Shown here piece after piece: positions 18,471 to 38,058 of a stretch of DNA of 38,252 bases. This DNA is from Candidatus Kapaibacterium sp. GTDB lineage: Bacteria; Bacteroidota; Ignavibacteria; Kapaibacteriales; Kapaibacteriaceae. Below the pieces are notes generated by a model. That model worked only from the letters and a program-made list of their open reading frames with translations. It searched no databases and was not told where the DNA came from. The stretch is taken from the NCBI GenBank assembly GCA_026390655.1, contig JAPLFN010000120.1, positions 1-38,252 on the forward strand, read 5' to 3'. The first letter of the stretch is position 1, and every line of letters starts with the position of its first letter. A program made the translations under genes and the position numbers.

Positions 18471-19915
18471 TGCACCACCACTTTTTTTGAACATAGTGGT
18501 TTTGTCTGGCTTCGTAGCTGCAATACGTACGCTCCTGAACCAACAGAAGCAGGCACTACAAACGTGTAGGCTATTTTTTCTCGCACAGGTGTGGGAGCGA
18601 GCGCGCCGCGAGCTACTTCTCTGCCATCAACCGAGAACAATACCCACGTTGTGGCTTCCTTGCCCGGGCATGTTACCGTAATAACGCCCGTCATCGGATT
18701 AGGGTACACCGTATTACTGTCCTGACTTGCTTTGAAGTCGGGAACGCTAGAAGTACTCGGAATCAAACTCTCGGCGCGTAAGCCACCTTCCCCACGGCCA
18801 TTGGTGAAACCGATGGTGAGAGCCGAGTTGTTTGTGGCGCCAGCATATACGGACCACGAGTTGCCGAAAAACTTACTTGTGTCACTCATTTTGTTTAAGG
18901 GGACCGAGTCTCCAACATTGTAGAAAACGAATCCGCGCCAATCTGCTGGAATCTGCTTTGAGTCTCGCAAGCAGAAGAAGCGGGCCGCGTCCTTGGACCA
19001 TGAAGGGTTTTGAAAGTCGTCATCATTCTCCCCCGTAAAATCTCCCGTAATAGACCAGATCACCTTGCCCGTTTCGATCTCTGTGACGCTGGCTCGGGGG
19101 CCTGTGACGGGGTCGGGGCCGAAGCCTATTGGCAAACCATAGCCTGAGGCCATAACGTGGCGTCCGTCTCCCGAGACAGCACAGAAGCCACATTCCTTGG
19201 TATGCCGAAAAGTTGGTGCGCCGTTTCCTATCGTTGCAATCGAAACACGATTGCGGGCACTGACACTGCCGATGCTGCCACTTGATACGAAAACCATTTG
19301 ATGCTCTGCATCATCGAAGTCGCAACGGTAGTATGATCTTGCGTCAACGAGATACGATGTATCTTCTTGCAAGTCATGCAACCTCATCTGGTAATAGAAG
19401 TAGTTCGGCACGCTTACCGACCTTGTTGAGTCCGGCACAATCACATAGCGCCCCGACGGCGAGACCTTCACGCGCACCCCCCCCCAGTCTGCCCCGAAGC
19501 CACTGCCGTAGAACATGCTGTCCTTGATAATACGCTTGGACGGGTAGTCCATCAACAGAACTTTGCAGACTTTCTCATTTCTGGCAACAATCAACGCAAG
19601 TACCTTACCGTCACGAGAGCACGAGATGTCTACTACTGCGCTAAACCGGTCACTAGCCTTGCCATTGGACCAGTCACTCATCTTGATTGTGTCACGAGCT
19701 TCTCCGGTCTTTGCGTCAAGCACGTAGATGCGTTCATCTTGCGCACCGCCAAACAAAAGTCCCGCACCTTCGGCCAAGGCTATCCCACCAGTCGGGTACG
19801 GATTGCTAACCTCCCACAACACTTGCCCCACTCTAGGTAATGTCTGGGCTTGCATGGAGGTGGCTGCTAAGATCAACGATAGTATTGCAGCGATAATCGT
19901 TTTAATGTTTATCAT
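18467..19915 (-). CDS. T9SS-exported beta-propeller protein with type A sorting domain
   Basis: A 482-residue protein: signal MINIKTIIAAILSLILAATS with cleavage near MQAQ, then a propeller-like body. Repeated strands include GGIALAEGAGLLFGGAQDER, IYVLDAKTGEARDTI, VVDISCSRDGKVLALIVARN, VKVSPSGRYVIVPDS, GFCAVSGDGRHVMASGYG and IETGKVIWSITGDF. The C-terminal 85 residues are a T9SS sorting domain (VYPNPMTGVITVTCPG, WVLFSVDGREVARG, GAYVLQLRSQ, KKVVV). The ATG at 19915 is chosen because AAGGA lies 12 bases upstream and the signal peptide then starts at residue 1. A strong sigma70 promoter is at 19945-19973. A nine-G coding tract (plus-strand C run 19477-19485) sits within DWGGVRV, a likely slippage site. 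The gene is coupled to the giant surface protein downstream. Function unknown. Confidence 0.83.
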   Translation of the reverse strand: MINIKTIIAAILSLILAATSMQAQTLPRVGQVLWEVSNPYPTGGIALAEGAGLLFGGAQDERIYVLDAKTGEARDTIKMSDWSNGKASDRFSAVVDISCSRDGKVLALIVARNEKVCKVLLMDYPSKRIIKDSMFYGSGFGADWGGVRVKVSPSGRYVIVPDSTRSVSVPNYFYYQMRLHDLQEDTSYLVDARSYYRCDFDDAEHQMVFVSSGSIGSVSARNRVSIATIGNGAPTFRHTKECGFCAVSGDGRHVMASGYGLPIGFGPDPVTGPRASVTEIETGKVIWSITGDFTGENDDDFQNPSWSKDAARFFCLRDSKQIPADWRGFVFYNVGDSVPLNKMSDTSKFFGNSWSVYAGATNNSALTIGFTNGRGEGGLRAESLIPSTSSVPDFKASQDSNTVYPNPMTGVITVTCPGKEATTWVLFSVDGREVARGALAPTPVREKIAYTFVVPASVGSGAYVLQLRSQTKPLCSKKVVVQ

Positions 19916-20371: not shown

Positions 20372-20791
20372 TTAATACAACGGCAACACGTCTGCATAGA
20401 CAATGCGTTTGTCGAGGGTGAAGTCCATATCGCCCCCTCCATCAGCATTCTTGTTGCCAAGACTGAGTGCGCGTAGGCGGTTGTCGAGTGGGTCAGAGAA
20501 GAACTGTTCGTACTCCTTGATCACAACGCGATGCTGCGTACCGAGAACGCCGCCATCAACACGAAGAGTACCGCCCCACATGTTTGCGGCGGGAATACGG
20601 TCAATGCGCTGTGACACTACGGGCGTCCACCCAAGATCGTCGCCACCTTCAGATGGGTTCCGCTTCTCGATGGTCACCTCAATCTCACTGCCTGTTTGAC
20701 CCGTGGTGTTGATTCGATATGTAGGCCCAACTACTTGCACGTTGATCGTAGAACCATCGGCGTCGATCGATGCCGTTGCTTGACGGTCGGG
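20372..20791 (-). CDS. 3' segment of frameshifted giant protein A (~1389 aa)
   Basis: 139 codons in the frame that continues protein A. Reading with a one-base backward slip at 20789-20791 gives FIRLHPDRQATASIDADGST then INVQVVGPTYRI, a smooth junction, whereas the original frame runs into TVKQRHRSTPMVLRSTCK and a stop. The segment ends GGGDMDFTLDKRIVYADVLP followed by LY and TAA. The only local start codon is a GTG at 20740, mid-domain, so this is not an independent gene. Beta-rich, no known domain. Confidence 0.7.
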   Translation of the reverse strand, partial: PDRQATASIDADGSTINVQVVGPTYRINTTGQTGSEIEVTIEKRNPSEGGDDLGWTPVVSQRIDRIPAANMWGGTLRVDGGVLGTQHRVVIKEYEQFFSDPLDNRLRALSLGNKNADGGGDMDFTLDKRIVYADVLPLY

Positions 20792-23700
20792 TGGAGGCGG
20801 ATGAATGGATAGTACGACTCACCAGGGTTGATGGTAACGTCACAGAACCATAGTTGACGCTCGGTATCATAGTGTGGCTTGTAGGCCACCACGGTGAATC
20901 GTTCTGTAACACCAAGCTCCTCAAGAGAAACTCCGCTTTGAATCACATCTGCATCGGCAAAGTTTGCGGCAAGAGGTGTTGAATCAGACGGTGTTGGAGC
21001 GCTCAACCAGATCGGATCAAGACCCCATTGCGTTACGTACGGCGTGTGGCTCTCCGGAATGTCGACTTTCGAGAGCGCCATCGATCCTAGGACGGTGCCC
21101 TTCGTGGCAAGTGCTCCTCCGTCCTTGAGATATAGCGTTCCCTTGAAGTCCTTACCGCCGCCTCCACCTCCGCCGGTTCCAGGTGTGAACTTCTGGCCCG
21201 TGTACAGAACAATCCCAACCATCTCCTCATTGCCGGATGAGTACCACGTGCGCTCCATCCAAATACGCAGACCGCCACCCTTACGTGTAGATGTTACGAC
21301 GTTGCCAGTAAGAACTTTTTCGTTTTCTACCCACGTGAATGATGGTATCACATACAAGAGTTTTACAGCATCAGGACGCTTAGAGCTAAGAATGTGGAGT
21401 GCCTTGCCTACGCCCTTGCGTGTAAGGTTTGCTTGATCCTTATTGATCGACTCCGGCATGTACTCTCGGAACAGGGTAGTGGCCGTAGGGACGTATGTAA
21501 CATGACGATGCTTTGTATCGCCAAACTCCTGTGTCTTCTCCGCCATGAGCTTGTCTACTGCGCGGTCTTCCACATGCTGGTCATAAAAGTACGATCGCTG
21601 CTGAAGTTCTTCTGGTCCAGGCTTGTTAAGATTGTCTTCCTTCATCATCCACTCTGTATTCATGTCGATCTTCTGCGTTGTTCGACCATGAACGTAGGTG
21701 TCGCTGATGTTGATCGTTGCATTCGTTCCACCGAATTCACGAAGCGCAACCACCGCCGCTTTCACTTCTGGTTTTTTAAGGGGCTTCTGGGTTGCGTGCA
21801 CAAGATTCAAAACTCGGCCCGGTGTTATCAGCCACGAAAGTCCTCGCGATGCAGCTGCGAGTGCAGCTCCGGCAATGCCCGCCGCTTGTAAGGTTCCCTT
21901 GTGCCCGAGTAAGTCCAGATTCTGATCTGCTTCAGTTTGTTTCTCGCCAAGTGAGCTACTGAACAAGATCTTTGCTTGCTCGCCCTTAGGAAGCATGATA
22001 GTTAATGTGCGCTGTCCAAGATCCCACGTGGGAGCACCGGATCCTTCTGCGAGCTTGATAATGATGCTACGTATCTCGGGCCATACGTCAATCCCGTCAA
22101 AGACCACGGTAACGACGCCGGAGGCTGATGCGACACTCGCCATATTCACGCCAGCGAGAGTGACCTCCATGAGCTGACTCGCTGTAACACCAGGAACACC
22201 GGAAAGCGTAAAGCCACGCGCCAGCGGATCTGGCAAATATGGCGGAACTGCTGACGGACCAGGAACGTATGGGTAGTTGATCGCATTTTCTCGTGCGTCG
22301 CCTGCGGGTGGCACGTTGTCCGTTGCTTCCGGCTTAAGATCTCCGGTAACTGTGCGAGTGTACCAACGAGTTGGAAGCTGCCCGCTCTTCTTTACGATCA
22401 GGTCGTAGGTCGGCACGTCGCCCTTGAGTTTCCCCTTTGGAGTAACATCAAAGAATCCGTGGCGCTCGCACGTTTGTTGAGCGGCAAGGGGAGGATAGAC
22501 GTGACGTTCTGAAGCCTCTGTTGTAGGAACTTCATCAGCATCGTTCTCACTAGCATTGTAATTGCGGATGACCATTCGCTCCAGAGACTCGCCCTCTATC
22601 GGGTGTCTCTTCAGCGCAAGTATCGGCGATACGATCGGGTCCCAGCGCAGGTAACGCACAAGCGCAGTTGTGCATGAAATGTCATCGGGGGCGATCTCGT
22701 TCAAATGAGGACCGTTACCCAGCGCGTCCACCACGCGTGCACGCATCCGATAGCCCCTGCCGTACCGTAGTCGAGGCAGGGAGCCCTTCATAACGGTAAT
22801 GCTGGATTCAATCTGATAGTCGTAGTCAGATGGAGGCGATTGCTTCTTTGTGTCGGGCGCGATCTCATCTTCTGTTCCGATGTGCTGACCGATCAACGGC
22901 GCAACAAGACTCCAGCCTTCCCATTGCATCACGGTTTCGTGAGCGTACAGCGAACGCAAGGATGGCGTGTCGTCGGAGCCAACAGGACGTGAAGCACCGA
23001 AGGTCATCACTCCCTCTTCGTCTGCAACGGAAACGCCCTTGGTCTTTAAGTCGCCGGTGGCATTCGGGAACGTGTACGTAGCGTTGCGTCTCATCAACGA
23101 ATGCCACTTCTTTGAAACATCGTCCCAGACGTCAATTCTGAAGCCACGCAAGAGATCGTCTGCGTAGAGATTGACTTCTGTGTCAGTGACAAGTTTGTTG
23201 TAATTCTGCGCGCTGCGAATAAGAGACTTTGCAAGCTTTAATCCGCGGTTGACGCGGATCAATTGCAGTCCTGTTCCGCGCACTGCCGGTGGTGTTGCAT
23301 CCGACGCAGAATCAAGAGTATCAAAGGTCATCTTCAATCGGTGCAGCATGCCACGCGTGTATTGCAGCGTCTTAAGCGCTGCAGCATCAACATCAATTTG
23401 GATGATGTCAAAATGACTTGCATCGTCCAGACAAAGAACAGCCCCCCTTATCTCAGAATCCGGTAGGGGGCGAGGAAGGAACTGCCAATACTCAGGAGCA
23501 CCTACGCGGTCGAGTCGGTATGCTACCCATGGCGTTGTATTCTTAGTGCCTGGAGTCTTGGGTGACGGGAAATCAACGAGGCAACGTAGACGGCTGACGT
23601 CAGTGAAGCCCGATGGAATCTCGAACTCCACATGCTGAACAAGACCCAGCTTGCGAAGCATGATCGGATACTCGCGCATAAACGAGATCACCTGATGAAA

Positions 23701-24540
23701 GTCGTAGGTGGGCCGTGCGATCTTTGGGCGACCAACGCGACGCTGAATCTTATCACCCTTTTTGAGTCCGGGTTTGTCTACACTGTAGTTTCTCGCCGTG
23801 TGGAAGATCTCTGCCATCAAGAGTCCACCTACGGGCTTATCGTAATCGACGGGCCGAAACAACATCCGCTCAGCCTTTGATGGAACCTCTATTGGACGCT
23901 TATTGATCTCACGGACGGCTCCCTTTGCTGTGTCACCTTCATTCATCCGCTTCGCAGTGTTCGCCATGCCCTGAGACTCCCATGAACTCTTGAGCTGACG
24001 CAGACCCGCTTCGTCTTCATCTGTTGGTGTAAGATCTTTCATCAGATCCATTACCTTGGGCAGCTCAGTTAGAACTCCAAAGTTGGACTTTGTCTTCTTG
24101 AACTTCGATAGGACAACGTCAATTTTTGGAGCTGTAGAAAATTCCTTTGCAAGCGTGACGTATGCGGCGTTGACCGAGTCCATCACGTTCTTCACTGGGA
24201 ATGATACTACCTGAAAATCGGTGAACGGGCGATACTCAAATGGGCGCACAAGCGTTGTTGGCGCAAAGATCGCCTTCCACGTTTCCGAGTCCGCAGCATC
24301 ATCCTTCTGCGTTTGATCCGTCGGCTTTACCTTGATGCCGTCGAAGTCGAGAGTGACCTTGATACCTTTCAACGTTTCCGGCCAATTCAGCCAGTCCGGA
24401 TAGTCGTTCAAAGTACGAGGGGCAGTAGTTGCTTCTTGCAGCTTTGGTGTAACGCTGATCGCTACGGAGAGGTACGTTCTTCCGCTGCGTTGTTCAACGT
24501 CATACGGTATTGCGATCCATTGGAGTTCCTGTGTAGCCAT
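20731..24540 (-). CDS. 5' segment of giant uncharacterised protein A
   Basis: The ORF starts MATQELQWIAIPYDVEQRSG with no signal peptide, and YPDWLNWPETLKGIKVTLDF lies at about residues 41-60. About 1250 residues precede the frame break. The protein is beta-rich, with a low-complexity Gly run (GTGGGGGGGKDFKG, near residue 1122) and late segments such as PFIRLHP. From memory, large hypothetical proteins with the same opening (an aromatic IPxG/IPY start, then a PDWLxWP signature) exist in Actinobacteria and Myxobacteria and often lie next to homologues of giant B; I cannot check this here. ATG 24540 is chosen because a strong GGAGG lies nine bases upstream and the giant B stop is only four bases before it. 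The transcript is shared with giant B. Function unknown. Confidence 0.75.
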   Translation of the reverse strand: MATQELQWIAIPYDVEQRSGRTYLSVAISVTPKLQEATTAPRTLNDYPDWLNWPETLKGIKVTLDFDGIKVKPTDQTQKDDAADSETWKAIFAPTTLVRPFEYRPFTDFQVVSFPVKNVMDSVNAAYVTLAKEFSTAPKIDVVLSKFKKTKSNFGVLTELPKVMDLMKDLTPTDEDEAGLRQLKSSWESQGMANTAKRMNEGDTAKGAVREINKRPIEVPSKAERMLFRPVDYDKPVGGLLMAEIFHTARNYSVDKPGLKKGDKIQRRVGRPKIARPTYDFHQVISFMREYPIMLRKLGLVQHVEFEIPSGFTDVSRLRCLVDFPSPKTPGTKNTTPWVAYRLDRVGAPEYWQFLPRPLPDSEIRGAVLCLDDASHFDIIQIDVDAAALKTLQYTRGMLHRLKMTFDTLDSASDATPPAVRGTGLQLIRVNRGLKLAKSLIRSAQNYNKLVTDTEVNLYADDLLRGFRIDVWDDVSKKWHSLMRRNATYTFPNATGDLKTKGVSVADEEGVMTFGASRPVGSDDTPSLRSLYAHETVMQWEGWSLVAPLIGQHIGTEDEIAPDTKKQSPPSDYDYQIESSITVMKGSLPRLRYGRGYRMRARVVDALGNGPHLNEIAPDDISCTTALVRYLRWDPIVSPILALKRHPIEGESLERMVIRNYNASENDADEVPTTEASERHVYPPLAAQQTCERHGFFDVTPKGKLKGDVPTYDLIVKKSGQLPTRWYTRTVTGDLKPEATDNVPPAGDARENAINYPYVPGPSAVPPYLPDPLARGFTLSGVPGVTASQLMEVTLAGVNMASVASASGVVTVVFDGIDVWPEIRSIIIKLAEGSGAPTWDLGQRTLTIMLPKGEQAKILFSSSLGEKQTEADQNLDLLGHKGTLQAAGIAGAALAAASRGLSWLITPGRVLNLVHATQKPLKKPEVKAAVVALREFGGTNATINISDTYVHGRTTQKIDMNTEWMMKEDNLNKPGPEELQQRSYFYDQHVEDRAVDKLMAEKTQEFGDTKHRHVTYVPTATTLFREYMPESINKDQANLTRKGVGKALHILSSKRPDAVKLLYVIPSFTWVENEKVLTGNVVTSTRKGGGLRIWMERTWYSSGNEEMVGIVLYTGQKFTPGTGGGGGGGKDFKGTLYLKDGGALATKGTVLGSMALSKVDIPESHTPYVTQWGLDPIWLSAPTPSDSTPLAANFADADVIQSGVSLEELGVTERFTVVAYKPHYDTERQLWFCDVTINPGESYYPFIRLHPTVKQRHRSTPMVLRSTCK

Positions 24541-24544
24541 GATA

Positions 24545-27500
24545 TCAGGCCTCCTCATAGTCAAAACTTGAACAATAGAGTTCCCAGAGCGATGGCTCTG
24601 GTAGTGCGTCCTTGAATGTCGGATCGCCGTCGGAGCCCTTTAGTTGACGTTCTACGGTAACGCCTACGCTAAAGCTGAAGAACAATATCTCGATCTCTAC
24701 TTCGATGGTAGCAACACCAAAGACCTTGCCGTTGCTTTGCCATGTGAGTTTCAACTCAAACAACAAATTGATGTGGATGAGACCGAGAACGGAAAGGTTT
24801 CCTGTCAGTCGGAAATAGCCGGTAAGCTCCGATTGACTCACAAGCTTGCCTTCGATCTCTTTCTGCTCAAGCTTGTAATAGATGCCGGCCATCACGCTTG
24901 CGCCGCCAGATGCTATCCCGCAATCGAATGCGAAGTTGCCTCCAAATTCGAACGCGGCCTCAAGCATGCGCACACCCGATGGTGTGATCTCTATGCCGAA
25001 GAATCCGCCCCCTGCAAACATCATAATTGTCAGGCGGAACGGATTATCCTTTGTGCAGAACGCGAAATAGGCGGAGAAGGGGCGACCATCAAATGGTATC
25101 GTGATGCTCATGAGGAAGGCCATGTTCTGCAAGGAGAACACACCTACTGTCACGTTCGGCAAGCCGATCGTCATCGAAGCGGTGATGCCCGTTGGAAGTA
25201 CGCTGAAGTCAAATGAGAACCCAACGCCACCGCCACCACCACCCTTGGGAATGAGATCCTTGAGCTTATTGACGAACGATAGCGGACCAGCAAACTCTAC
25301 GCTCTTGATGTCCGGGTTGATCGATGGTTTCTCGCCGATCTTTGCCGAGAAGGAGATCTTGTTGAACGTGATGATGAGGAACTGTGCCGCACCATCGCCA
25401 ATGAGATTGATGATGAAGTTCGAGAGCGATCCGTAGAGTTTTACCTCCGGTGGATCCAGGTTGAGCTTCTTGATGAACTCAGCCTTGAGATAGAGGAACG
25501 CTTTGTCATCTTTATTGGTAGCCGACGGATCGCGAGGCATTAGGATGTTGCCTGGCGAGCCTTTGATCTCTGTTTGCCATTCGTAGACGAGCTGCAGTCC
25601 TTTCTTCAACGACTCAAGATTGCCCGCCACTTCCTTGTACTTGTTTGCAGCTTCGTTACCCGCCTCGATAAGGGGCTCCAAGGCTTTTTCAATCTCTGAC
25701 TTTAGTTCATTGGCCTTGTCTTCGATCCGTTTCTTCCACTCCTTGACGCGATCTTCCGCAGCTTTCTTTCCCGCAGTCACGTAGCTCTGAATCTCAGCCT
25801 TTACTGCGTCGACCTCTGCCTTCAGTGCATCCTTCGCTGCGTTCACTTCGGCAGCAACATCGCCGGCAAGTTTGTTTGCCTCCGCTTTTAGATCATCTGC
25901 CTTTGCCTTGATATCATTGATGTCGTCCTTAATTCCGAAGTCATCCTTCTTGTCGAGACCCGGCATCTTATCGAGATTATTCAGGATGCCTTGCACAAAA
26001 CTCAGGATATCCTTGAGTGTGATGTCTCCGAGGATCTTGCTCTTGAGCAGACCTTCGAAGTACTGCATCGGATCGAAGTTCCCGACGGCAGCTGCAGAGT
26101 TCGCAAGGTCGTTTACTTTTCCCTGGATCGGACCCATGAGGCGTGACAACGCGTCAACGCCAATGCTCGGTGCAGCAAGGCCGCCGGCCTTGTCCGACTG
26201 AGCACCGAAGTCCATCTGCAATGAATCCTTAAGAGCAAGGAACATTTGCGACGGATTCTTAATGTCGGCTACGTTAACAGGTGCCCCCTTGGCAACGGCA
26301 GCGCCGGCTTCAAACGCGTGTGCTAAATACTTCTCATAGAACTCAACTGTGTTACTGCCGCTCGTTCCTAACAACTCTTGTACCTTTTCGATCCGCACTG
26401 TGGACTTCTCCATGCGCGGAAAGAATCTTGGTGTTTCAACAGGGATGGAGTCGTTCGAATACCCCATCAAGAAAAACTCTTGAGTGGGTAGTGCAGTGTC
26501 GCCGCGTTTGATCGAAGGAGCAAAGGCAACTTTCTGTCCGCTCAAGTTTATCGTTCGACGAGACATCAGATTGATGTAGGAGTCGGGCTTGTTAGCACCA
26601 CCCTTAACACCGGTGAACGTTTGAAGTGCTGCTGGACTTGTAGGGCCAGCTGCATCCGGCGACGTGATGAAGGTGAGAGGTATACTGAATTGAATGGTGT
26701 TGTTGTCCCAGTCAGTACCGACACAGTTCCACAATACATCTTGTGGTGAACCACCTCCAATGGTGAACATCGGCCAGAAGCTATTTCCGGAGAACAATGT
26801 TGGTTGCGATGCGATAAGGGGCTTCGGCAGTTCGAGATTCGGTGTCACCTTCGTGGTGATCGTGATGCGCCGGAATGGCAACTCTCTACCTTGATGATCC
26901 ATGCCTGTGAGACCGTCAGCCGGAAACTCTCGCGTTGGTTCACGGAGCATGATGAACATCCGCTGCATGAGATAGGCAGCCATGTCTCCGCGAGGTGTGC
27001 GAACGAACTTGCGTTCCGTTTCCTTAACGAGTGTGGCGCGGTTTCCAAACGGAAAGAGATATCCCTTGTAGGCAACACGAACAAAGCTGTCTCTGCCCTG
27101 TGCGCCGCGTTGGACCCATGATTCTACTTCCAAGTCATCGGATGCGGCAGGATCCCACGATCCCGTACCATCCATCCATGCGCCAAGGGAAGTGAGCATG
27201 AGCCGTTTTACCTTTACCGGCTCCGGCTCGGTCTTGATCATGTTGTAGTTGGATGTAAGATCTACGATCTCACTGCGATCACGGCGATTAAGCGATGTCC
27301 GAAAAGGTCGCTCTTTATAAAGGGGCTGCATTGTACGTGCAGTCCCATAGTCGGGTGACCAGATAGCCCTTACAGTGCGGAAGTATTCGGAATATTCGTT
27401 TACAGTTCCGTCTGTGTGACGAACGCCAAGACGTGTATGCCAAAGTTCCGCACGACGTTGGTCCTTAGAGAGTCCGCTATCTTTTCTGTGCGCAAAACCT

Positions 27501-29620
27501 GCATACTTATTGGGCGACAAGAAAAGTCGATACGGATATTCGATAGCAGTTTCATCGAGGTCGGGCCACTTAATAGGGGGCTTCGCGTTATAGTATGACA
27601 CGATCTCATTGATCGTGGATTCGCTGAGAGATGTAGCAAGATCCGCTTGCGTCTCAAATGATTCCTTGACCTTGGCGCTCCTGGAGGTAAGCCTACTCGA
27701 AGCGCCGGAATTGAACGAGTACTTCTTTGAGGCGAATCCCTTTGACTTTACGAGAAGCGTTGTGGCTTTTGCATCCTTCTTCTCAACATCTGCATACGAC
27801 CCAAATTTCAGGTACGTGCTCTTTGCCAATGCGCCCATTACGAATGGCATGTCAGGGGGCTTCGCACTCGGCGACACGGCGAGAGTGAACTTCGACCAGT
27901 CGAGAAGTCCTTCTATGCTGTACGAGCCCGTGTATCCACCCGGCAACTGAAACACAAGGCGAGAAGGATGCGCCATGGCTGCATCGATCGGAGGATCGAG
28001 AAGGGGCTCATCACTACTTGTCTTTTTTGATGCGTCGGCCGGCGGATACGATGAGTTGTCTTTTGGTTTGTTCTGCGTGTAAAAGAACGCACGCTCTGCA
28101 ATGTGTTGCGGTTGAAAATGAACGATAAGTTTTGACCCGGCTCCGCTCGCAGAGAATGTGCCGCCGGCCTTGTTCAGCGTGATGCCCTGAAACTCAAACG
28201 TGAGAACAAGCATGTCGTCGGGTCTGATGACCGTAACGCGTGGGTTGCTCGGCATTTTGAACTTGACCTTGCCGATATTGCCAAGCGACTTCTTCACCTT
28301 GCTCGTGATCGTTGCATCCTTCACCTGCGACTGCACGGACATCTGCTGTTTGAAGTCCACCTGCAGCGATGCGAGGTGAATCTGCGACTTCGGAAGCGCT
28401 GACGTTTTCACGGCACTCGTCAGCAAGGCGAGCTGATAGAGCGGATGCGTGGTTGTAGGCTCTGTAACTGCGCCGGAGACCGGGATCGAATATCGCTTGA
28501 GACCGGGAGCTACGATGAAACGGGTAATCTCATTGCCTCGACGCTCGATCTCCAAAGGTGGGATACCTTCACTGTCTCCAAGTTCAACAGAAACGCCTTC
28601 GATGTGTGACCACTGTGCATTGCGAGCATAACGGGCTACGAGGCCTTCGTGGCGCCCCTTCTCCGTGTCTGTCCACGCATATCGCAGATCACGCAATGGT
28701 AGATTGATACCTGCTTCCGCCACGTTCATGGACGTTGCGCCTTCGCGGCCCGACTCCAACATTCCCGTTGACCGGCCCTCGCTGGTGATCTCTACAGAGC
28801 ATGCATCGAACGACTCGTCATTGCTCACGAGTTGCCAATCAGCAAGTCCAGTTGCATCTACGCGGACATCCCATTTCTCACTGCCGCGATCAAGTCGAAC
28901 AAAAGATCGGCTCCCATTCGCGCCCATCGTGAGAGAGGGCGCACTTTTGGCAAGAGTCATGAGTGCGAACTTCTTCCCAAACAATGTCCGCCCGTCAGTA
29001 GTGAGCATCGTGGCTGCCGCAAACGATATTGTCCACGACGGACGAAACGTTGCAGACCCTGCGCCAATTGCTACAGCATTGCCATCTCCAAGACGAGATT
29101 GCAGCGCGGACGTGCGATAGAAGTTTGCTGTTGTGTTGTCCAATAGCCACGATACAAAGTCAACACTCTCTGTATTTCCGAATGACGCAAATCGGAAGGT
29201 TGCCTGCGCGCTTATGCCGCGCGTAATATGTGCCTCAACATCGGCGCGGATCTGTGTACCCGGAAACAACGCGTTGCGCAGATGGACAACGATTCCAGCG
29301 TCCGTTTCTGCCACATCAACAAATGGTAATCCGTCAAAGAGGTCAGGATCCACGGACCAACGTTCTATGCCGGCAACAAGAAAAACAACGCGCTTGCCTT
29401 TACGAAGCATCTGATACGACGTGCTGACGGCTGCGTGAACTGCGTTTACCAACGGGCCGGCCGCAAGAGTAAGAGCGCCAGCGAGTTTGATCGCATGCCG
29501 GCGGGTAAGGCTGAAAGCCTCTGGTTGATGAACGAGGGAGGCCGTAGTGCGGGTCTCGATCGGAATCCGCGGAACCTGCGCACGCTTAAGTGACGCAAGC
29601 GACAACCGTTGTCGGTTCAT
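24545..29620 (-). CDS. Giant uncharacterised protein B (1691 aa), Tat-type signal and coiled coil
   Basis: N-terminus: basic leader, then LTRRHAIKL (RR at residues 40-41), hydrophobic GALTLAAGPLVN and a VHA-A cleavage-like site near 63, all typical of a twin-arginine signal. A beta-rich body follows with the series PYRLFLSPNKYAGFAH (about 692), ELWHTRLGVR (about 722), VRAIWSPDY, LTSLGAWMDG and VRVAYKGYLFPFGNRA (about 845) with ERKFVRT. A long charged coiled coil runs about 1227-1340 (DDINDIKAKADDLKAEANKL onward), a hexaglycine occurs near 1460, and the C-terminal part is strand-rich (AGGGFFGIEITPSGVRMLEA, FGGNFAFDCGIASGGASVMA) ending WELYCSSFDYEEA. I recall the YKGYLFPFGxRAxLVKxTERKF and GGFFxLxxxPxGVxMLEAAxEFGG motifs from hypothetical giants of other phyla. 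There is no T9SS sorting domain. The ATG at 29620 has GAGG seven bases upstream. Function unknown. Confidence 0.85.
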   Translation of the reverse strand: MNRQRLSLASLKRAQVPRIPIETRTTASLVHQPEAFSLTRRHAIKLAGALTLAAGPLVNAVHAAVSTSYQMLRKGKRVVFLVAGIERWSVDPDLFDGLPFVDVAETDAGIVVHLRNALFPGTQIRADVEAHITRGISAQATFRFASFGNTESVDFVSWLLDNTTANFYRTSALQSRLGDGNAVAIGAGSATFRPSWTISFAAATMLTTDGRTLFGKKFALMTLAKSAPSLTMGANGSRSFVRLDRGSEKWDVRVDATGLADWQLVSNDESFDACSVEITSEGRSTGMLESGREGATSMNVAEAGINLPLRDLRYAWTDTEKGRHEGLVARYARNAQWSHIEGVSVELGDSEGIPPLEIERRGNEITRFIVAPGLKRYSIPVSGAVTEPTTTHPLYQLALLTSAVKTSALPKSQIHLASLQVDFKQQMSVQSQVKDATITSKVKKSLGNIGKVKFKMPSNPRVTVIRPDDMLVLTFEFQGITLNKAGGTFSASGAGSKLIVHFQPQHIAERAFFYTQNKPKDNSSYPPADASKKTSSDEPLLDPPIDAAMAHPSRLVFQLPGGYTGSYSIEGLLDWSKFTLAVSPSAKPPDMPFVMGALAKSTYLKFGSYADVEKKDAKATTLLVKSKGFASKKYSFNSGASSRLTSRSAKVKESFETQADLATSLSESTINEIVSYYNAKPPIKWPDLDETAIEYPYRLFLSPNKYAGFAHRKDSGLSKDQRRAELWHTRLGVRHTDGTVNEYSEYFRTVRAIWSPDYGTARTMQPLYKERPFRTSLNRRDRSEIVDLTSNYNMIKTEPEPVKVKRLMLTSLGAWMDGTGSWDPAASDDLEVESWVQRGAQGRDSFVRVAYKGYLFPFGNRATLVKETERKFVRTPRGDMAAYLMQRMFIMLREPTREFPADGLTGMDHQGRELPFRRITITTKVTPNLELPKPLIASQPTLFSGNSFWPMFTIGGGSPQDVLWNCVGTDWDNNTIQFSIPLTFITSPDAAGPTSPAALQTFTGVKGGANKPDSYINLMSRRTINLSGQKVAFAPSIKRGDTALPTQEFFLMGYSNDSIPVETPRFFPRMEKSTVRIEKVQELLGTSGSNTVEFYEKYLAHAFEAGAAVAKGAPVNVADIKNPSQMFLALKDSLQMDFGAQSDKAGGLAAPSIGVDALSRLMGPIQGKVNDLANSAAAVGNFDPMQYFEGLLKSKILGDITLKDILSFVQGILNNLDKMPGLDKKDDFGIKDDINDIKAKADDLKAEANKLAGDVAAEVNAAKDALKAEVDAVKAEIQSYVTAGKKAAEDRVKEWKKRIEDKANELKSEIEKALEPLIEAGNEAANKYKEVAGNLESLKKGLQLVYEWQTEIKGSPGNILMPRDPSATNKDDKAFLYLKAEFIKKLNLDPPEVKLYGSLSNFIINLIGDGAAQFLIITFNKISFSAKIGEKPSINPDIKSVEFAGPLSFVNKLKDLIPKGGGGGGVGFSFDFSVLPTGITASMTIGLPNVTVGVFSLQNMAFLMSITIPFDGRPFSAYFAFCTKDNPFRLTIMMFAGGGFFGIEITPSGVRMLEAAFEFGGNFAFDCGIASGGASVMAGIYYKLEQKEIEGKLVSQSELTGYFRLTGNLSVLGLIHINLLFELKLTWQSNGKVFGVATIEVEIEILFFSFSVGVTVERQLKGSDGDPTFKDALPEPSLWELYCSSFDYEEA

Positions 29621-29696
29621 AGTCCCACCTCTCCCTTGGTACATGACGCCGAAAGTCAGACCGCAAAACAACGCTATCGACGGGACAAATAAAAGG

Positions 29697-29730
29697 TTTG
29701 TTCCAAGTATAGTTTCAACGCGTATGTTTG
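29697..29730 (+). promoter_or_regulatory. Bacteroidota-type promoter of the RCC1-barrel operon
   Basis: TTTG at 29697-29700 and TATGTTTG at 29723-29730 match the Bacteroidota -33 TTTG and -7 TAnnTTTG consensus with a 22-nt gap. The start codon at 29792 is preceded by GGAGG with suitable spacing. The same 171-bp region must also hold the promoter for the giant genes on the minus strand; the best candidate there is a weak TTGAAA-type box near 29720. Confidence 0.5.
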
Positions 29731-29791
29731 GAACCTCACCAGCGTCTGTGGTGTCACATCGCCTGGTTTCATTTTCGGGGAGGGTAGCCCG

Positions 29792-32605
29792 ATGGTTCGT
29801 CTTTATGTTTCGCTCGCAGTAGTGCTTCTGGTAAGCGCACTAGGCATTCGAGGACAGTCGCCTGAGATGGTCAGTGTGCGCCTCAGTCAGCCCCCTCCCA
29901 ACCAGCTCCGCGTTGCGGATTTATGGAAGGTGCAGCTCACAAACACTTCCGGACGTCCAGTTCGTGTGTATTTACATGGCACAGCAGAGGAGACATCCAT
30001 CCCAGACGGCATTATTGCGGACGCCACAACAAAGATCTTCGAGATTCCAGTAGGCACCATTGTGGTCACGGGTTCTCAGGTGCAGCCGATCAAGGTGGAC
30101 CAATACAATCAGAAGTACCGGGATGCACTGCTCCGCACTGGCACCGTGCCAACAGGCGATTATCAGATCTGCTGTGAAGTGATCAGTGCAGAGTCGGATC
30201 AGATCCTGGGAAAGGACTGCAAGTTCACAACGGTCAATCGTCTCTCTCAGCCAATTCTCATTGCTCCGCCCGACGAGTCGGAAGTGCCCGGTGGATACCC
30301 TGTGTTCACGTGGATGTCATCTGTACCTCCGGGTCCGGGGCAACGCATTCTCTATCAACTCCGCATTCATGAGATCTTTGCTACCCAAACGCCACAAGAT
30401 GCTACTCAACGCAACCCGGCGTTTCTCGATATCAGAGACCTCAACAGAACGATCTACCAGTATCCGGTTTCTGCCCGTCGTTTCACCGTGGGTCAGAAGT
30501 ACGCGTGGGTGATCTCCGCGTATGAACAGAGTGGTTCGTCTATCATCAACCTCGGAGTCAGCGAAGTGTGGACGTTTGTCTACAGGCCCCTCGTGAACGA
30601 CACGTTGCCTGCTGACCGGCGAATTCGGGCGGCCGTAGTTCCCGAGCTAACAGAGATCTGTCCGGGAGAGAACTGGGATTTTGAGATAGGATCGTTGGCC
30701 TGCTGGACGGTTGAAGGCGATGCGTTTCAAGATGACCCTGTGAACGGCGAACATCCTGTGCTCGGCAATCTCGGTCAAAACGGTCGCTTCTGGGTAACCT
30801 CCTACGGAGCCTTTGACGCCGATGGAGCTATGGGCAGAATGCAGTCTCAGGAATTTCGCATTCAGACCAGTATGGTCGGCTTTCTTGCAGGGGGCTCAGC
30901 AAGCCCTGAGGCAGCCGTTGAGCTCTACGTGGAGAAACTGGCCAAGGACACGTTCAAACTGCCAGTGCGTAAGCTGCCGGGGCTCCCAGGTGAGTTTTAT
31001 CTAGCATACACAACCGGCGTTCCCAAGGCAAAAGCCGGCTCGAGTGAGCGGCTCGTACCTACGGCATGGAATGTGGTTCGATACATCAATCGGGCGGCAT
31101 ACATCGTTGTGAAAGACAGCGCGAAACTTGCACACATCAATGCCGACAATTTCCGATTCTTTGACCGAGAGAAACTCGACACAATCAAGTTGCCGGTTCT
31201 GATGATGGCTGCTGGTGAGCGGCATTCAATGGCGATGACGCCCGAGGAAAAAAGCCCCCTTCAACTCGTTAAAGATCTTGGCATAAGCGCAGCAGATTTC
31301 AAAGCCGGGAAGTCGGGCTTGGCAAATGAAGCCACGATCAATCAGGTGTCGATGGGACTAAAGGCAAAGAAAAATCTCGTAAGTCAGTTCGCCGGCGGTG
31401 GTAATGGCGATGCACCTCCACCAGCATTTAACGTGGTGGAGGCCAAGTTTGATCAAAAGGCATCACCATTCGCAAAGTACTTCCCACTTGCCGCCGTGGA
31501 TTCTAAAACCACGTTGTGGGGATGGGGCGACAATCTACGTGGCGAGCTCACAAAGGCCTACCCTAGTGTTGTTCCGGAACCAAAACCTCTTTTAAAAACG
31601 ATGAATGCCCTTGGCCTTGCCGCAGGGATGGATAACTCCTTTATCGTTGAGCGTGGAGGAACGGTGAAGGGATGGGGCTTTAACGACTACTGGCAATTGG
31701 GCGTGAACGATCGTGTGATCAAGAACGTGCCTACGGTGCTACCCGGACTGAGTGGCGTTATTGATGTGGCAGCCGGGTCTCGCCATGCAATGGCGTTAAC
31801 GAGTGCCGGCGATGTTTATGTATGGGGCTACAATCGAACGTTTGAGTGTGGTTTTTTTGGTGGCAAGCTCAACGCCACAACGGGTCAGCTCGAGAGCATT
31901 GACAATCCAACGGTTGCTCGTAAACATCCGATGTTGTCGAACATCCGTGCAATTGCTTGTGGCCATTCGCACTCCCTCGCACTTACCATGAGTGGTGTCA
32001 TCGCAGGATGGGGTGTTAACGGAAGTGGTCAAACGGGCTTTGATGACGATTACCCGTTCGTTCCCATCCCACTACCCATCACGATCGATTTGGGTACCAT
32101 CGCGGGTTTTAAACGTGGTAAGACAGTGATAGACATTGCTGCCGGGGATGCTCATTCGATGGCATTAACAAATACGGGTGAAGTGTTTGTGTGGGGCAGC
32201 AACTCGAGTGGCCAGCTTGGAGACGGGACCACTATTGATCGCCATACACCTAAGAAGGTGGATGGACTGGTGAACATCCGCGCCATTGCAGCTGGTGGAG
32301 CGTTCTCACTCGCGCTAGATTCGGCGGGCGTTGTGTGGGCGTGGGGGAATAACATCCTCGGTCAGCTTGGCGATGGAACGAGATATGGTCGACTCAAACC
32401 GGTGAAGGTGTCGCGCATCGATGCCGTGCAAGGTATCGTAGCAGGTGGCGCCCACGCGATGGCCGTGCGTTCTGATGGAAGTCTTTGGACATGGGGACAG
32501 AATGGACTTGGCCAGATGGGAGAGGGGCCTATCATGAATCTCGTTCCGGTTCCTACAGATCCTCCTGTTGGGCCTCTGCGTGTTGAACGGCTAGCAATGC
32601 CATGA
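29792..32605 (+). CDS. Secreted multi-domain RCC1 beta-propeller protein (937 aa)
   Basis: Signal MVRLYVSLAVVLLVSALGIR with cleavage near RGQS. Residues about 25-150 form a beta-sandwich (QLRVADLWKVQLTNTSGRPV, PTGDYQICCEVIS). Residues 152-260 (QPILIAPPDESEVPGGYPVF, TWMSSVPPG, LYQLRIHEIF) have the layout of TANFOR-like or FnIII-like modules of large Bacteroidota surface proteins. About 295-465 is a jelly-roll-like module (ACWTVEGDAFQDDP, FLAGGSASPEAAVELYVEK, VKDSAKLAHINADNFRFFD), as in carbohydrate-binding modules. About 570-935 is an RCC1/ATS1 propeller of about seven blades (GWGFNDYWQLG, VAAGSRHAMALTSAGDVYVW, GSNSSGQLGDGTT, WAWGNNILGQLGDGT). This looks like a surface binding protein. It has no sorting domain, so its route out is unclear. 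The stop overlaps the barrel gene. Confidence 0.87.
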   Translation: MVRLYVSLAVVLLVSALGIRGQSPEMVSVRLSQPPPNQLRVADLWKVQLTNTSGRPVRVYLHGTAEETSIPDGIIADATTKIFEIPVGTIVVTGSQVQPIKVDQYNQKYRDALLRTGTVPTGDYQICCEVISAESDQILGKDCKFTTVNRLSQPILIAPPDESEVPGGYPVFTWMSSVPPGPGQRILYQLRIHEIFATQTPQDATQRNPAFLDIRDLNRTIYQYPVSARRFTVGQKYAWVISAYEQSGSSIINLGVSEVWTFVYRPLVNDTLPADRRIRAAVVPELTEICPGENWDFEIGSLACWTVEGDAFQDDPVNGEHPVLGNLGQNGRFWVTSYGAFDADGAMGRMQSQEFRIQTSMVGFLAGGSASPEAAVELYVEKLAKDTFKLPVRKLPGLPGEFYLAYTTGVPKAKAGSSERLVPTAWNVVRYINRAAYIVVKDSAKLAHINADNFRFFDREKLDTIKLPVLMMAAGERHSMAMTPEEKSPLQLVKDLGISAADFKAGKSGLANEATINQVSMGLKAKKNLVSQFAGGGNGDAPPPAFNVVEAKFDQKASPFAKYFPLAAVDSKTTLWGWGDNLRGELTKAYPSVVPEPKPLLKTMNALGLAAGMDNSFIVERGGTVKGWGFNDYWQLGVNDRVIKNVPTVLPGLSGVIDVAAGSRHAMALTSAGDVYVWGYNRTFECGFFGGKLNATTGQLESIDNPTVARKHPMLSNIRAIACGHSHSLALTMSGVIAGWGVNGSGQTGFDDDYPFVPIPLPITIDLGTIAGFKRGKTVIDIAAGDAHSMALTNTGEVFVWGSNSSGQLGDGTTIDRHTPKKVDGLVNIRAIAAGGAFSLALDSAGVVWAWGNNILGQLGDGTRYGRLKPVKVSRIDAVQGIVAGGAHAMAVRSDGSLWTWGQNGLGQMGEGPIMNLVPVPTDPPVGPLRVERLAMP

Positions 32606-34560
32606 TGCGAGCGATCTGCTTGATCCTCTTTCTTGTGTCGGTGAACGTGGCGGCCCAAACCAGCTCATCACAGCCTGACAAACCATGGGTCGTCTTCGGT
32701 GCTGATCAAGGTGACGCACCGGTGATTTTCACTGGTGGATATCGTTTGCTGGGTCAGCTTTCGAATCGCTCAGGTTCGTTTCAAGCTAAACCCCCTGACT
32801 TTTGGCGTGTAGAGCTTACACCGTCGATGATCATTTATGGGATCCCGCTTACGGCCAATCTGCTTCTGTCTTCAGAGCAACAGAGTATTCAGCAAACCAT
32901 TGACGCGTTTTCGATCTCGTTAGATCCCGACGCCGTGAAGAGAATCATTGCACAAAGAGCGTATCGCGAAGTAGAGAACTTTGCGATGTCGGAAGCAGGG
33001 TGGATGTTAAGTGAATACGATAACATCAAGGATTCCCTAGCGCAGTACGATCCGCAACAACTTGAGCAGCTCGACGCTATCCGGCAAGTAGAGCAAATGC
33101 GTGACGTGGCTAATGGCAACATCACCAACTACGAAGATGTTCTCACAAAGCTTGGCGTGATGAGTGATGTGGAGAGTGTGATGGCCGCATTACCTAAGGT
33201 TGGAGTAGGAACAGTGTTCCCGTCGTTCACGCCCCTTAGTCTTAGCGGAGCGCGTATCGTAGGGGGGAATCTAGAGTGGAATCCCGGCGGGACGTTCTAC
33301 ATTCACGGTGTATTCGGTACAACGCAGCGCCCACTCGCACGTGTGGATTCAACACGAATTGACACGACGATCTATCGCACTACGGACAATTCGGACTTTG
33401 GCCGCAGACTCTATGGTGGACGCATCGGCTATGGCACGCTCGGCGGCGATCACGTAATGCTCACTGGGGTATACACGGTGGATGACAAGACAAGTCTGAC
33501 GGTTACGGACACAACATCGGCCCTGACGCCACAAAAGAATATGCTCTCGACTGTAGACTTCCGTGTTGAACTTATTCCAAGTACGTGGACAATGGAAGGA
33601 GAAGTTGGGGGCTCGCTCACCATCGGTGATCTCAATGCGCCGCAGTTCGGTGCAAACACTATACCCGATTTTCTCCTCGTACTTGTTGATTCAAATGCTT
33701 CGTCGTACGTAGACTGGGCTGCGAAACTTTCCACAGCCGTTAACGTGCGAAGTACCGGCACCCGATTCACAGGCTCCGTTCGCCGAATTGGTGCGGGTTA
33801 CCGAGCTCTTGGCGTACCGAACCTTCGTGTTGACGTGCTGCGGTTTGATGTAAAGCTGGATCAGTCCTTGATGAAGAGACAGATGACAATCGGATTGTTC
33901 GCACGTCAGGATCGCGACAACCTTATTCCCATTAAACGATCAACGTCAACACTGTTGTCCATCGGTGCAACGCTGGGGCTCAACTTCAGGGGGCTTCCAT
34001 ATTTCCGCATCTCGTATTCGCCATATGTGCAGGAGAGCAACGCATCAGATCCGTTGTTGCAATACGTGAACCGTACAACAATGTGGAACGTTGCAGGGGG
34101 CTATGCATATCGCTTGAGTGATCTGAGTGCAAGTACCAATGTGACGGTGGCCCGTCAGGACGCAACCACAAAGGACAATCTGTATGACTACGCAGTAACA
34201 TCTGCAAACGTTAGTCAAACGGTGGGCCTCGTCATTCCGTTGTCGCTTACTGCCGGGCTGGGATGGATTCACCAGGAGGCTGTTCAAAGTGCTAGCACGA
34301 CGATCATCACCATCGATGCATCTGCATCGTACCTATTGTCTGATGTACTCAGCGCAAACGGTGGCCTGAGCGTCGCGCTTGATGATACGTATGGAAACCG
34401 CAATGGGTTTTTCATCGGCTTGAACGCACATCTCGGGAAACTTGCAGACATTGACCTGCGTGCAGAACGGACCCTCTTCAATGAAAGACTTACTCCAGCG
34501 GTGCTTGGTGGTACGTATCAAGAAACAGTGGGGCGGTTAACAATCAGCAGAAGTTGGTGA
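32602..34560 (+). CDS. Outer-membrane beta-barrel protein with helical insertion (652 aa)
   Basis: Signal MMRAICLILFLVSVNVAAQT. A first part (GGYRLLGQLSNRSGSFQAKP, VELTPSMIIYGIPLTANLLL) leads into a helical region at about residues 85-190 (DPDAVKRIIAQRAYREVENF to EDVLTKLGVMSDVESVMAAL). Alternating-strand barrel sequence follows to the end (FTPLSLSGARIVGGNLEWNP, GRRLYGGRIGYGTLGGDHVM, MTIGLFARQDRD), finishing LTISRSW with a terminal aromatic as in barrel C-termini. The pattern FTPLSLSGxxxxGGxxxxNPG is one I recall from uncharacterised barrels of Bacteroidota that sit next to TANFOR-type proteins. ATGA overlap with the RCC1 gene (32602-32605) indicates coupling, and the pair could be a surface protein with its outer-membrane platform. 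Substrate or function unknown. Confidence 0.8.
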   Translation: MMRAICLILFLVSVNVAAQTSSSQPDKPWVVFGADQGDAPVIFTGGYRLLGQLSNRSGSFQAKPPDFWRVELTPSMIIYGIPLTANLLLSSEQQSIQQTIDAFSISLDPDAVKRIIAQRAYREVENFAMSEAGWMLSEYDNIKDSLAQYDPQQLEQLDAIRQVEQMRDVANGNITNYEDVLTKLGVMSDVESVMAALPKVGVGTVFPSFTPLSLSGARIVGGNLEWNPGGTFYIHGVFGTTQRPLARVDSTRIDTTIYRTTDNSDFGRRLYGGRIGYGTLGGDHVMLTGVYTVDDKTSLTVTDTTSALTPQKNMLSTVDFRVELIPSTWTMEGEVGGSLTIGDLNAPQFGANTIPDFLLVLVDSNASSYVDWAAKLSTAVNVRSTGTRFTGSVRRIGAGYRALGVPNLRVDVLRFDVKLDQSLMKRQMTIGLFARQDRDNLIPIKRSTSTLLSIGATLGLNFRGLPYFRISYSPYVQESNASDPLLQYVNRTTMWNVAGGYAYRLSDLSASTNVTVARQDATTKDNLYDYAVTSANVSQTVGLVIPLSLTAGLGWIHQEAVQSASTTIITIDASASYLLSDVLSANGGLSVALDDTYGNRNGFFIGLNAHLGKLADIDLRAERTLFNERLTPAVLGGTYQETVGRLTISRSW

Positions 34561-34582
34561 TTAGCACACTAGCACACTAACG
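34561..34582. repeat. Short repeat at a convergent gene end
   Basis: TTAGCACAC followed by TAGCACAC and TAACG fill the 16-bp gap between the barrel gene and surA. The minus-strand copy supplies the TAG stop codon of surA. There is no terminator hairpin. Confidence 0.6.
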
Positions 34583-35869
34583 CAGTTCCCAGTAGAGTTC
34601 GCGGCGAAGCTTCAGCATCCACTCTTGTTCGAGGCGTTGCTTTTTCTCGAACGACGCCATTTGCTCTATCTGTTTGTAGTCTGCCTCCACGGTTGGCGCG
34701 TGGGACGGTATGATGCGTTTACGATAGAGGAGGTGGAAGCCGGGCTTTGTTGGATCTGCGGCATAGGGCATCGGCTCCGAAACACCATGGTCCTGGAGGG
34801 CATTGATCGTGTTGCGCATTTCTTCCGGTAGTTGCGCTAACTCGATCTGACCCATTGCGCCGCCAAAGCCTTGTGTTTCTTTCTCTTCACTCAGTTGTCG
34901 TGCAAGTGTTTCAAAGTCTTCACCTTTCTCTACACGAGCCTTGATCTCAAGGAGTCGGGTCTTGATTATTGCTCGGTCTTCTTCACTCTGACCCGCTCGA
35001 ATGAGAATGTGCCTCGTGTTCATAGTTGTCGTGGTACGGCTGATCAGCTGGATGATGTGCCAGCCAAACGGAGTCTCCACAGGTTGCGAGATCTCATCGG
35101 GCGTAAGAGAGAACGCCGTTGCTTCAAATGCGGGTACAAACTTTCCTTTTTCAACGTTGCCAAGATCGCCACCATTGGCTGCAGAGATCGGATCTCCGGA
35201 GTACCGACGGGCAAAGTCGCTGAAGGAGCCCCCCTTTACAATTGAGTCACGAATGCGCATAGCAAGATTGTACGCCTCTTTGTTCTTTTCGCTAGAGGCC
35301 TGTACATATTTCACGATATGGAAGAGGTCTACACGCTCTGGAACCTTTGGTAGGGAGTCTCTATACTTCGAATAGAACTCCTCTACATCGGCTCGTGAAG
35401 CCTTGATCTGACCGAATTGTTTCTGCTGGATCTTTTCAACAAGTAGTCGCTTGCGAATCTCATCACGAAACTCTCTACGGATCTTAGCCATGCTCATGCC
35501 ATACATGTCTTCGATGCGTTTCTCGGACCCGAATTGCTGTATGAGCGTTTGGATCTGATACTCCATGCGTTGAGTGATCTCATCATCGGACACATCTACG
35601 CTATCTTCAATGGCCTTGGTTACCATGAGCCGCTCGTTAATGAGCTGATCCAAAATGGCCTGACGTAGTCTGGCGTCCTTGCGGTTCACTCGTGGGTCTC
35701 GCTGGGCGAGGATCTCCATCTGTCCATCCACGTCCGACTTCAGAACGATCTCTCGCCCGACCACAGCAACAATGCCCTCCATTGAGTCTTGTGCAAGAAG
35801 CAATGGGGCTGCCCAGATAGAAAAAAACAGGGCAACGAGGAACAGATGTATATGCGAAGTGCGGATCAT
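34577..35869 (-). CDS. surA: Periplasmic peptidyl-prolyl isomerase/chaperone SurA
   Basis: A 430-residue exported protein (signal to about residue 27, ending PLLLAQD). The SurA N-domain begins EGIVAVVGREIVLKSDVDGQ and contains LRQAILDQLINERLMVTKAI. Rotamase 1 (about residues 175-280) has VDLFHIVKYVQA, GSFSDFARRYSGDPISAANG and ETPFGWHIIQLI. Rotamase 2 (about 285-390) has NTRHILIRAGQSEEDRAIIK, GEDFETLARQLSEEKETQGF and PGFHLLYRKR. The parvulin His and Gly positions are present in both. It assists folding of outer-membrane proteins such as the barrels in this window. The ATG overlaps the stop of the larger PPIase gene (ATGA, 35866-35869). The gene symbol rests on domain order. Confidence 0.9.
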   Translation of the reverse strand: MIRTSHIHLFLVALFFSIWAAPLLLAQDSMEGIVAVVGREIVLKSDVDGQMEILAQRDPRVNRKDARLRQAILDQLINERLMVTKAIEDSVDVSDDEITQRMEYQIQTLIQQFGSEKRIEDMYGMSMAKIRREFRDEIRKRLLVEKIQQKQFGQIKASRADVEEFYSKYRDSLPKVPERVDLFHIVKYVQASSEKNKEAYNLAMRIRDSIVKGGSFSDFARRYSGDPISAANGGDLGNVEKGKFVPAFEATAFSLTPDEISQPVETPFGWHIIQLISRTTTTMNTRHILIRAGQSEEDRAIIKTRLLEIKARVEKGEDFETLARQLSEEKETQGFGGAMGQIELAQLPEEMRNTINALQDHGVSEPMPYAADPTKPGFHLLYRKRIIPSHAPTVEADYKQIEQMASFEKKQRLEQEWMLKLRRELYWELR

Positions 35870-37989: not shown

Positions 37990-38058
37990 GGCGGATATCG
38001 TCATGAATATTGTCGCTGAGAATGTGAGTGGGATCGGTCGTCACAGACGCCCGAACCA

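Follow-up and report, generated by a model that had tools for sequence, protein, structure and literature searches.

The window analysed here, a stretch of 38,252 nucleotides from Candidatus Kapaibacterium sp. (contig JAPLFN010000120.1), carries the genes of two very large proteins, giant B and giant A, which follow one another on the minus strand. A and B are a conserved, operon-linked pair of giant protein families. Their sequences suggest that B is a cargo of the twin-arginine translocation (Tat) pathway and carries A over the inner membrane as a folded hitchhiker complex, a reading given a probability of about 50%. B would be the partner that takes A across, because most long forms of B have a twin-arginine motif and A has no recognisable signal.

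Evidence for the pairing can be found in a scan of genome contigs: of its 202 pattern matches, 193 proved to be B relatives, and 80 loci were kept. In 73 of these loci, the gene directly downstream of B on the same strand is A. The main adjacency test found 72 of these, and L069, where A is masked by a long upstream frame, was added. Five of the seven loci without A (L028, L059, L062, L070 and L077) are on contigs that end within 88 bp of B, and the other two, L024 and L030, hold no A in the 2.5 and 10 kb past B. Some loci are duplicates: L037/L088, L039/L089 and window/L001 are the same record, and L024/L101 are near copies. As a separate observation, an orphan A or an orphan B was seen in the stretch examined at L100, L101, L024 and L030.

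Adjacency of the two giants in several phyla had been set as a test by a first-pass annotation of this DNA, and loci with B followed by A indeed span at least 12 phyla. The paired lineages, as judged from the record titles, are Bacillota (Symbiobacteriaceae), Armatimonadota, Acidobacteriota, Chloroflexota, Bacteroidota, Ignavibacteria/Chlorobiota, Desulforhopalus, cyanobacteria, Verrucomicrobiota, Nitrospirota, Actinomycetota, Pseudomonadota and Planctomycetota. Among the candidates scored there are at least 101 relatives of A and at least 211 of B. Sequence blocks of the GYLFPFGHRA type, and also ELWHTRL and GRDHYVRVV, are strongly conserved in the A and B families across very distant bacteria.

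The pair is also found on plasmids. The relative P0067 is matched by 15 of 72,556 plasmid records, and 13 of the 14 that were fetched hold B and then A; none of 50,697 phage records matches it. Plasmid copies of B (L106 and L108-L111, from Sinorhizobium, Rhizobium, Agrobacterium and Ruegeria) are about 2300-3300 amino acids (aa) long, up to twice the size seen elsewhere. One B relative, L116, was observed on a contig of a viral collection.

Of 149 genomes of the window's class, 13 have A, and the very same ones have B; two of them (G014 and G034) hold an additional copy of each giant, on separate contigs. Four other genomes of the window's genus were searched and have neither, so that gain or loss of the pair is patchy. 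Clusters of similar neighbours around A-B comprise at most nine loci each and are mostly bound to one lineage. Those neighbours that were read look unrelated, as judged by eye from the first 60 residues of 66 open reading frames (ORFs) rather than by a family scan.

The proposal of Tat export starts from the N-terminus of B. The strict motif [ST]RRx[FLVIMAW] was sought in the first 140 residues of each stop-to-stop frame, in a sample of 70 B and 67 A from L003-L082 (one per locus, closed 5' frame, at least 800 aa). It is present in 42 of the 70 B, compared with 4 of the 67 A (Fisher, p = 3.5e-12) and 47 of 874 other ORFs. Among long B proteins (at least 1400 aa), 21 of 29 have it. Of the eight long misses, which were re-inspected afterwards, five have D or G before the two arginines. 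L005 has the strict motif further in, so the 140-residue limit misses at least this one; in L006 it lies in a different frame, next to masked bases; and L021 has none.

The N-terminus of B often shows an S/T-R-R-x-hydrophobic motif ahead of a weakly hydrophobic stretch. Examples are LTRRHAIKLAGALTLAAG in the window, SRRNFLKGLGFGFLAF in Marinifilum, SRRKFLSYAG in Aminicenantes and ITRRDFLGAAAAAP in Sinorhizobium. Motif and hydrophobic stretch occur together in 46 of 99 B against 8 of 874 other ORFs. Not one of 94 A proteins combines two arginines with such a stretch, and only one of the 94 has a hydrophobic N-terminal stretch at all. A second block, resembling R-L-N-L-x-x-L-R, stands ahead of the twin-arginine motif and is common to long B proteins of several phyla.

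A further link to the pathway is provided by tatA genes that adjoin the pair. Such a gene follows A directly in L003 and lies just before B in L006, L010 and L031; on an S. meliloti plasmid, B (3052 aa) is followed by A (1766 aa) and then by tatA, the last named by the record annotation. The TatA profile first used was built from four of its own five matches, and a search with PF02416, drawing on 50 of the 80 loci, served as an independent check. Across the roughly 213 Mb of the 49 B-carrying genomes searched, it yielded 100 TatA-family matches, and it confirmed the same four adjacencies. TatA thus stands beside the pair in 4 of 49 genomes versus 0.02-0.04 expected by chance, a comparison from which kinship between genomes was not removed. 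In G172 the sole TatA found is the one beside B. Co-occurrence with TatC was rejected as evidence: it is present in 13 of 13 A-B genomes and tells nothing for or against, because 146 of the 149 class genomes have it.

The features of the window locus are as follows.

24545..29620, minus strand: giant B, 1691 aa, 185 kDa.
29411..29509, minus strand: twin-arginine (Tat-type) motif region of B, residues 38-70, LTRRHAIKLAGALTLAAG..., assigned from sequence and comparison.
25592..25930, minus strand: coiled-coil or apolipoprotein-like helical insert of B (PF01442, 26.1 bits, cut-off 90).
24617..25258, minus strand: beta-meander at the C-terminus of B, which looks porin-like in a relative's model; approximate limits taken from the alignment.
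20731..24540, minus strand: main frame of giant A, 1269 aa; no signal peptide seen.
20372..20740, minus strand: C-terminal tail of A in another frame, 122 aa; frame break in this assembly.
29621..29791, no strand: divergent intergenic region, 171 bp.
29792..32605, plus strand: N-domain protein with RCC1 propeller, 937 aa; N-terminus Sec-type by eye.
32602..34560, plus strand: 652-aa protein predicted to be an outer-membrane beta-barrel; its C-terminal W is invariant across five aligned copies.

A starts at 24540, 4 bases past the stop of B, with GAGGAGG ahead of the start. The first-pass annotation was right about the length of B, the four-base spacing and the GGAGG; its single A of about 1389 aa is instead a 1269-aa frame and a 122-aa tail, broken about 120 codons before the end. 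The coordinates also confirm the divergent 171-bp gap and the four-base overlap between the RCC1 and barrel genes that it reported. The A profile matches both pieces, at profile positions 1-1171 in the main frame and 1179-1286 in the tail. Lengths given for A refer to these separate pieces, which were never joined. Close relatives of A (at least 43% identity) are mostly 1407-1467 aa long, with one listed at 894. The break itself (window 20372-20791) is absent from most relatives, which are intact. In P0215, A is fused to phospholipase D domains.

The helical insert of B varies in size between relatives, as seen in alignment. The B core is fused to an Hcp-like domain in P0114 and stands behind a cohesin domain and a membrane helix in P0074. 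With the C-terminal piece of a B relative as sole query, 160 proteins were found, many of which are taken to be contig fragments; among the matches listed, those with a name are called hypothetical protein.

The genes that flank the locus are ordinary. They include SurA-type isomerases and a BamD-like protein and, by eye from the translations, ProRS, RuvB and Era. The two SurA-type peptidyl-prolyl isomerase genes adjoin the barrel gene (window 34577-38004). At 7179-8459 lies a first domain of a type 9 secretion plug protein (PF17116, 48.7 bits). On the minus strand, 12670-18494 holds a 1662-aa ORF with no obvious signal peptide and, just upstream, a 221-aa ORF with one; the two may be one broken or split gene. 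A weak type 9 sorting domain ends these ORFs (18.6 bits, below the cut-off of 27).

Several points weigh against the export of a joint A-B complex by Tat. Together, B (185 kDa) and A (at least 141 kDa) come to at least 326 kDa, far above the limit of 150 kDa that a review gives for Tat cargo (PMC6708511). Signals were called by pattern, not by a trained predictor, and TIGR01409 gives the window B only 11.4 bits, below its cut-off of 16.7. No strict motif is found in 28 of the 70 B, mostly short forms, including actinobacterial (L050, L068, L069, L082), proteobacterial (L056, L062, L063) and Chloroflexota copies (L026, L029, L059). Because most of these keep A alongside, Tat is not universal to the pair. 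Adjacent tatA genes are rare, at 5 of 110 scanned loci with A or B, in genomes that are possibly not independent. Finally, P0074 reads by eye as signal, outer domain, membrane helix and then B core, an order by which the core would sit inside.

Some of these points would suit a different arrangement, in which an uncleaved twin-arginine anchor on B holds an envelope structure while A stays cytoplasmic or at the inner face. Besides the topology of P0074 and the motif-less B forms that keep A, it is favoured by the many B signals that, by eye, have a short hydrophobic stretch and no clear AxA site. However, tatA stands beside the pair in five loci, and its linked partners, the N-domain protein and the barrel, resemble envelope proteins whose N-termini, judged by eye, are Sec-type. 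This arrangement is considered unlikely.

Family searches place neither giant. Both lack a Pfam, NCBIfam, PADLOC or PHROG family above cut-off. The weak matches of B are to coiled coils, plus the one sub-cut-off twin-arginine model; PADLOC, which models known anti-phage defence systems, and PHROG, searched for phage tail or contractile injection parts, reach it through the coil alone, while A has no PADLOC match and its main frame no PHROG match. The tail of A has one chance match of 9.7 bits in the NCBIfam search. Two labels were rejected: the apolipoprotein one (PF01442), whose score stands far below its cut-off and reflects a coiled coil, and alpha-xenorhabdolysin of NCBIfam, a 9.7-bit match with a cut-off of 125 that is due to the coiled coil alone.

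The same holds for structures and the literature. Sequence relatives of A or B in the PDB were not found by single-sequence or profile searches (best E-value 0.07). Structures were modelled for relatives (P0067, and the L082 copy minus three N-terminal residues) rather than for the window proteins. Foldseek gave no global match in the PDB for either model, and a fold search of BFVD with the model of a B relative gave only tail-fibre and porin rows, with a TM-score of at most 0.11 over the query. No published description of A or B was found in the literature searched, where journal coverage was partial. A-B is a real system for which no description was found.

In another reading, B would be an effector that is secreted and forms pores or binds lipid, A would serve it as carrier or shell, and the two would act against other cells or in lipid uptake. 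Yet sheets like the porin-like one of B give middling matches to many barrels, and no toxin or defence family is reached above cut-off, PADLOC responding to the coiled coil only. Among the part of the neighbours that was read, no recurrent cross-phylum neighbour resembles an immunity gene. An effector of this kind seems quite improbable.

The RCC1 protein and the barrel are partners of A-B in this lineage only, and the core unit is A-B. The RCC1 identity proposed at first holds, with PF00415 at 185.6 bits in 6 stretches, above cut-off, and PF25390 at 258.7 bits. The N-domain of this protein adjoins A-B in 13 of 13 class genomes (in G128 via a contig-end piece), and 10 of these genomes also have the barrel on the contig of A-B; in G014, G034 and G128 it is on another one. 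Enrichment of the RCC1/barrel pair near A-B, another test set at the outset, is thus seen within the class. Gene orders vary while the linkage is kept: divergent (window, L083-L087), B-A-RCC1-barrel (L037, L071, L072), N-domain-B-A-barrel (L035, L090, L091) and N-domain-barrel-B-A-N-domain (L039).

Relatives of these partners are more widespread than the giants. Matches to the barrel family, mostly weak, occur in 109 of 149 genomes, 96 of which lack A-B. Scores of at least 570.9 bits, over nearly the whole profile, belong to exactly the 13 A-B genomes, and the next score is 453.1. The N-domain is matched in 93 of 149 genomes; its best 17 matches (at least 311.6 bits) fall in all A-B genomes but one. 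A genome lacking A-B gives the next score, 310.7. In G128, the thirteenth A-B genome, where the N-domain lies in pieces at contig ends, the score is 243.8. These rankings lean to linked copies, because both profiles were built from A-B-linked copies, and the gap between 570.9 and 453.1 bits was noticed afterwards.

Several linked N-domain copies lack RCC1 repeats by pattern, so the conserved part of the "RCC1" protein is the N-domain. In L097-L099, from genomes without A-B, N-domain and barrel are fused in one protein of 863-1400 aa. N-domain and barrel are therefore a natural couple. These fusions lie near other N-domain proteins of about 600-1700 aa, in what looks like an unnamed paralogous envelope system of the class. 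Weaker N-domain and barrel relatives, some of them fused, are thus seen in the absence of A-B as well.

Outside Ignavibacteria/Kapabacteria-type genomes, blastp found no barrel or N-domain relative in the A-B flanks examined. The unit is thus smaller than the four-gene apparatus of the first-pass idea, though the RCC1/barrel pair stands beside A-B in the class. A universal four-gene unit was rejected, as A-B neighbours elsewhere are mostly unrelated. Among the five locus proteins, Pfam gave no POTRA/TpsB barrel or TpsA domain at E<=1, and no type 9 C-terminal sorting domain (PF18962 or like) was matched at E<=1 in the A pieces, B, the RCC1 protein or the barrel. It is very unlikely that the four genes make up a single secretion system of the outer membrane, with the barrel exporting the giants much as in two-partner secretion: the linkage and the barrel-score gap within the class speak for it, but no such barrel was found in the A-B flanks examined in other phyla, most genomes with barrel relatives lack the giants, and no POTRA or two-partner domain was matched.

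Export of A and B together by Tat would proceed in several steps. The two giants would bind each other in the cytoplasm, and Tat would export the folded complex, served by the neighbouring TatA in lineages that have it. In the window's class, the N-domain/RCC1 protein and the predicted barrel may receive A-B in the periplasm and then hold it at the outer membrane or pass it through. The C-terminal porin-like sheet of B and the chain of Ig/FN3-like sandwiches predicted for A could form a large envelope or surface structure, with lipid binding, a pore or adhesion as candidate roles. Short B forms that lack the motif would remain in the cell or exit by another route. The first-pass annotation suggested an export or surface-binding apparatus that might have the giants as its scaffold or cargo. 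That proposal is turned round here: the giants look like cargo of the Tat pathway rather than an export apparatus.

A bolder version can be formulated, tentatively and with the odds somewhat against it. A-B, in some lineages with its own TatA, would be an unnamed mobile export module of at least 12 phyla that sends a folded heterodimer of more than 320 kDa (more than 500 kDa on the rhizobial plasmid) through Tat. It would then exceed every other known Tat cargo in size and represent a new class of giant envelope machine. In any case, two unnamed giant families with strong motifs, conserved together over distant bacteria, point to an unrecognised envelope function. If A-B is Tat cargo, it lies above the reported size range of the pathway and offers a natural system, in some cases with its own TatA, for studying how the Tat pore adapts to cargo size.

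Several known systems resemble parts of A-B. Giant1-5 of Apilactobacillus are likewise very large predicted surface proteins in a row; going by their description alone, in the available part of the source, they differ in that no Tat signal and no two-family pairing is seen (PMC12863079). The window RCC1 gene resembles RCC1 beta-propeller proteins, matching both RCC1 families far above cut-off. Unlike plain RCC1 proteins, it is linked to A-B through its N-domain, which is the conserved part, and not through the propeller.

HybO/HybC, a hydrogenase, and PaoABC are cofactor enzymes. They exemplify hitchhiker export, an established mode of Tat, and share with A-B a signal on one partner only, export as a folded complex being proposed for A-B (PMC4273604). 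Unlike the Tat hitchhikers named, A and B have no match among enzyme families, and their combined mass is above 320 kDa. In Campylobacter jejuni, the substrate-linked TatA paralogue TatA2 is likewise an extra TatA tied to some substrates (PMC4148689). Unlike the situation described there for TatA2, tatA here adjoins two orphan genes of giant size, on a plasmid as well as in unrelated lineages.
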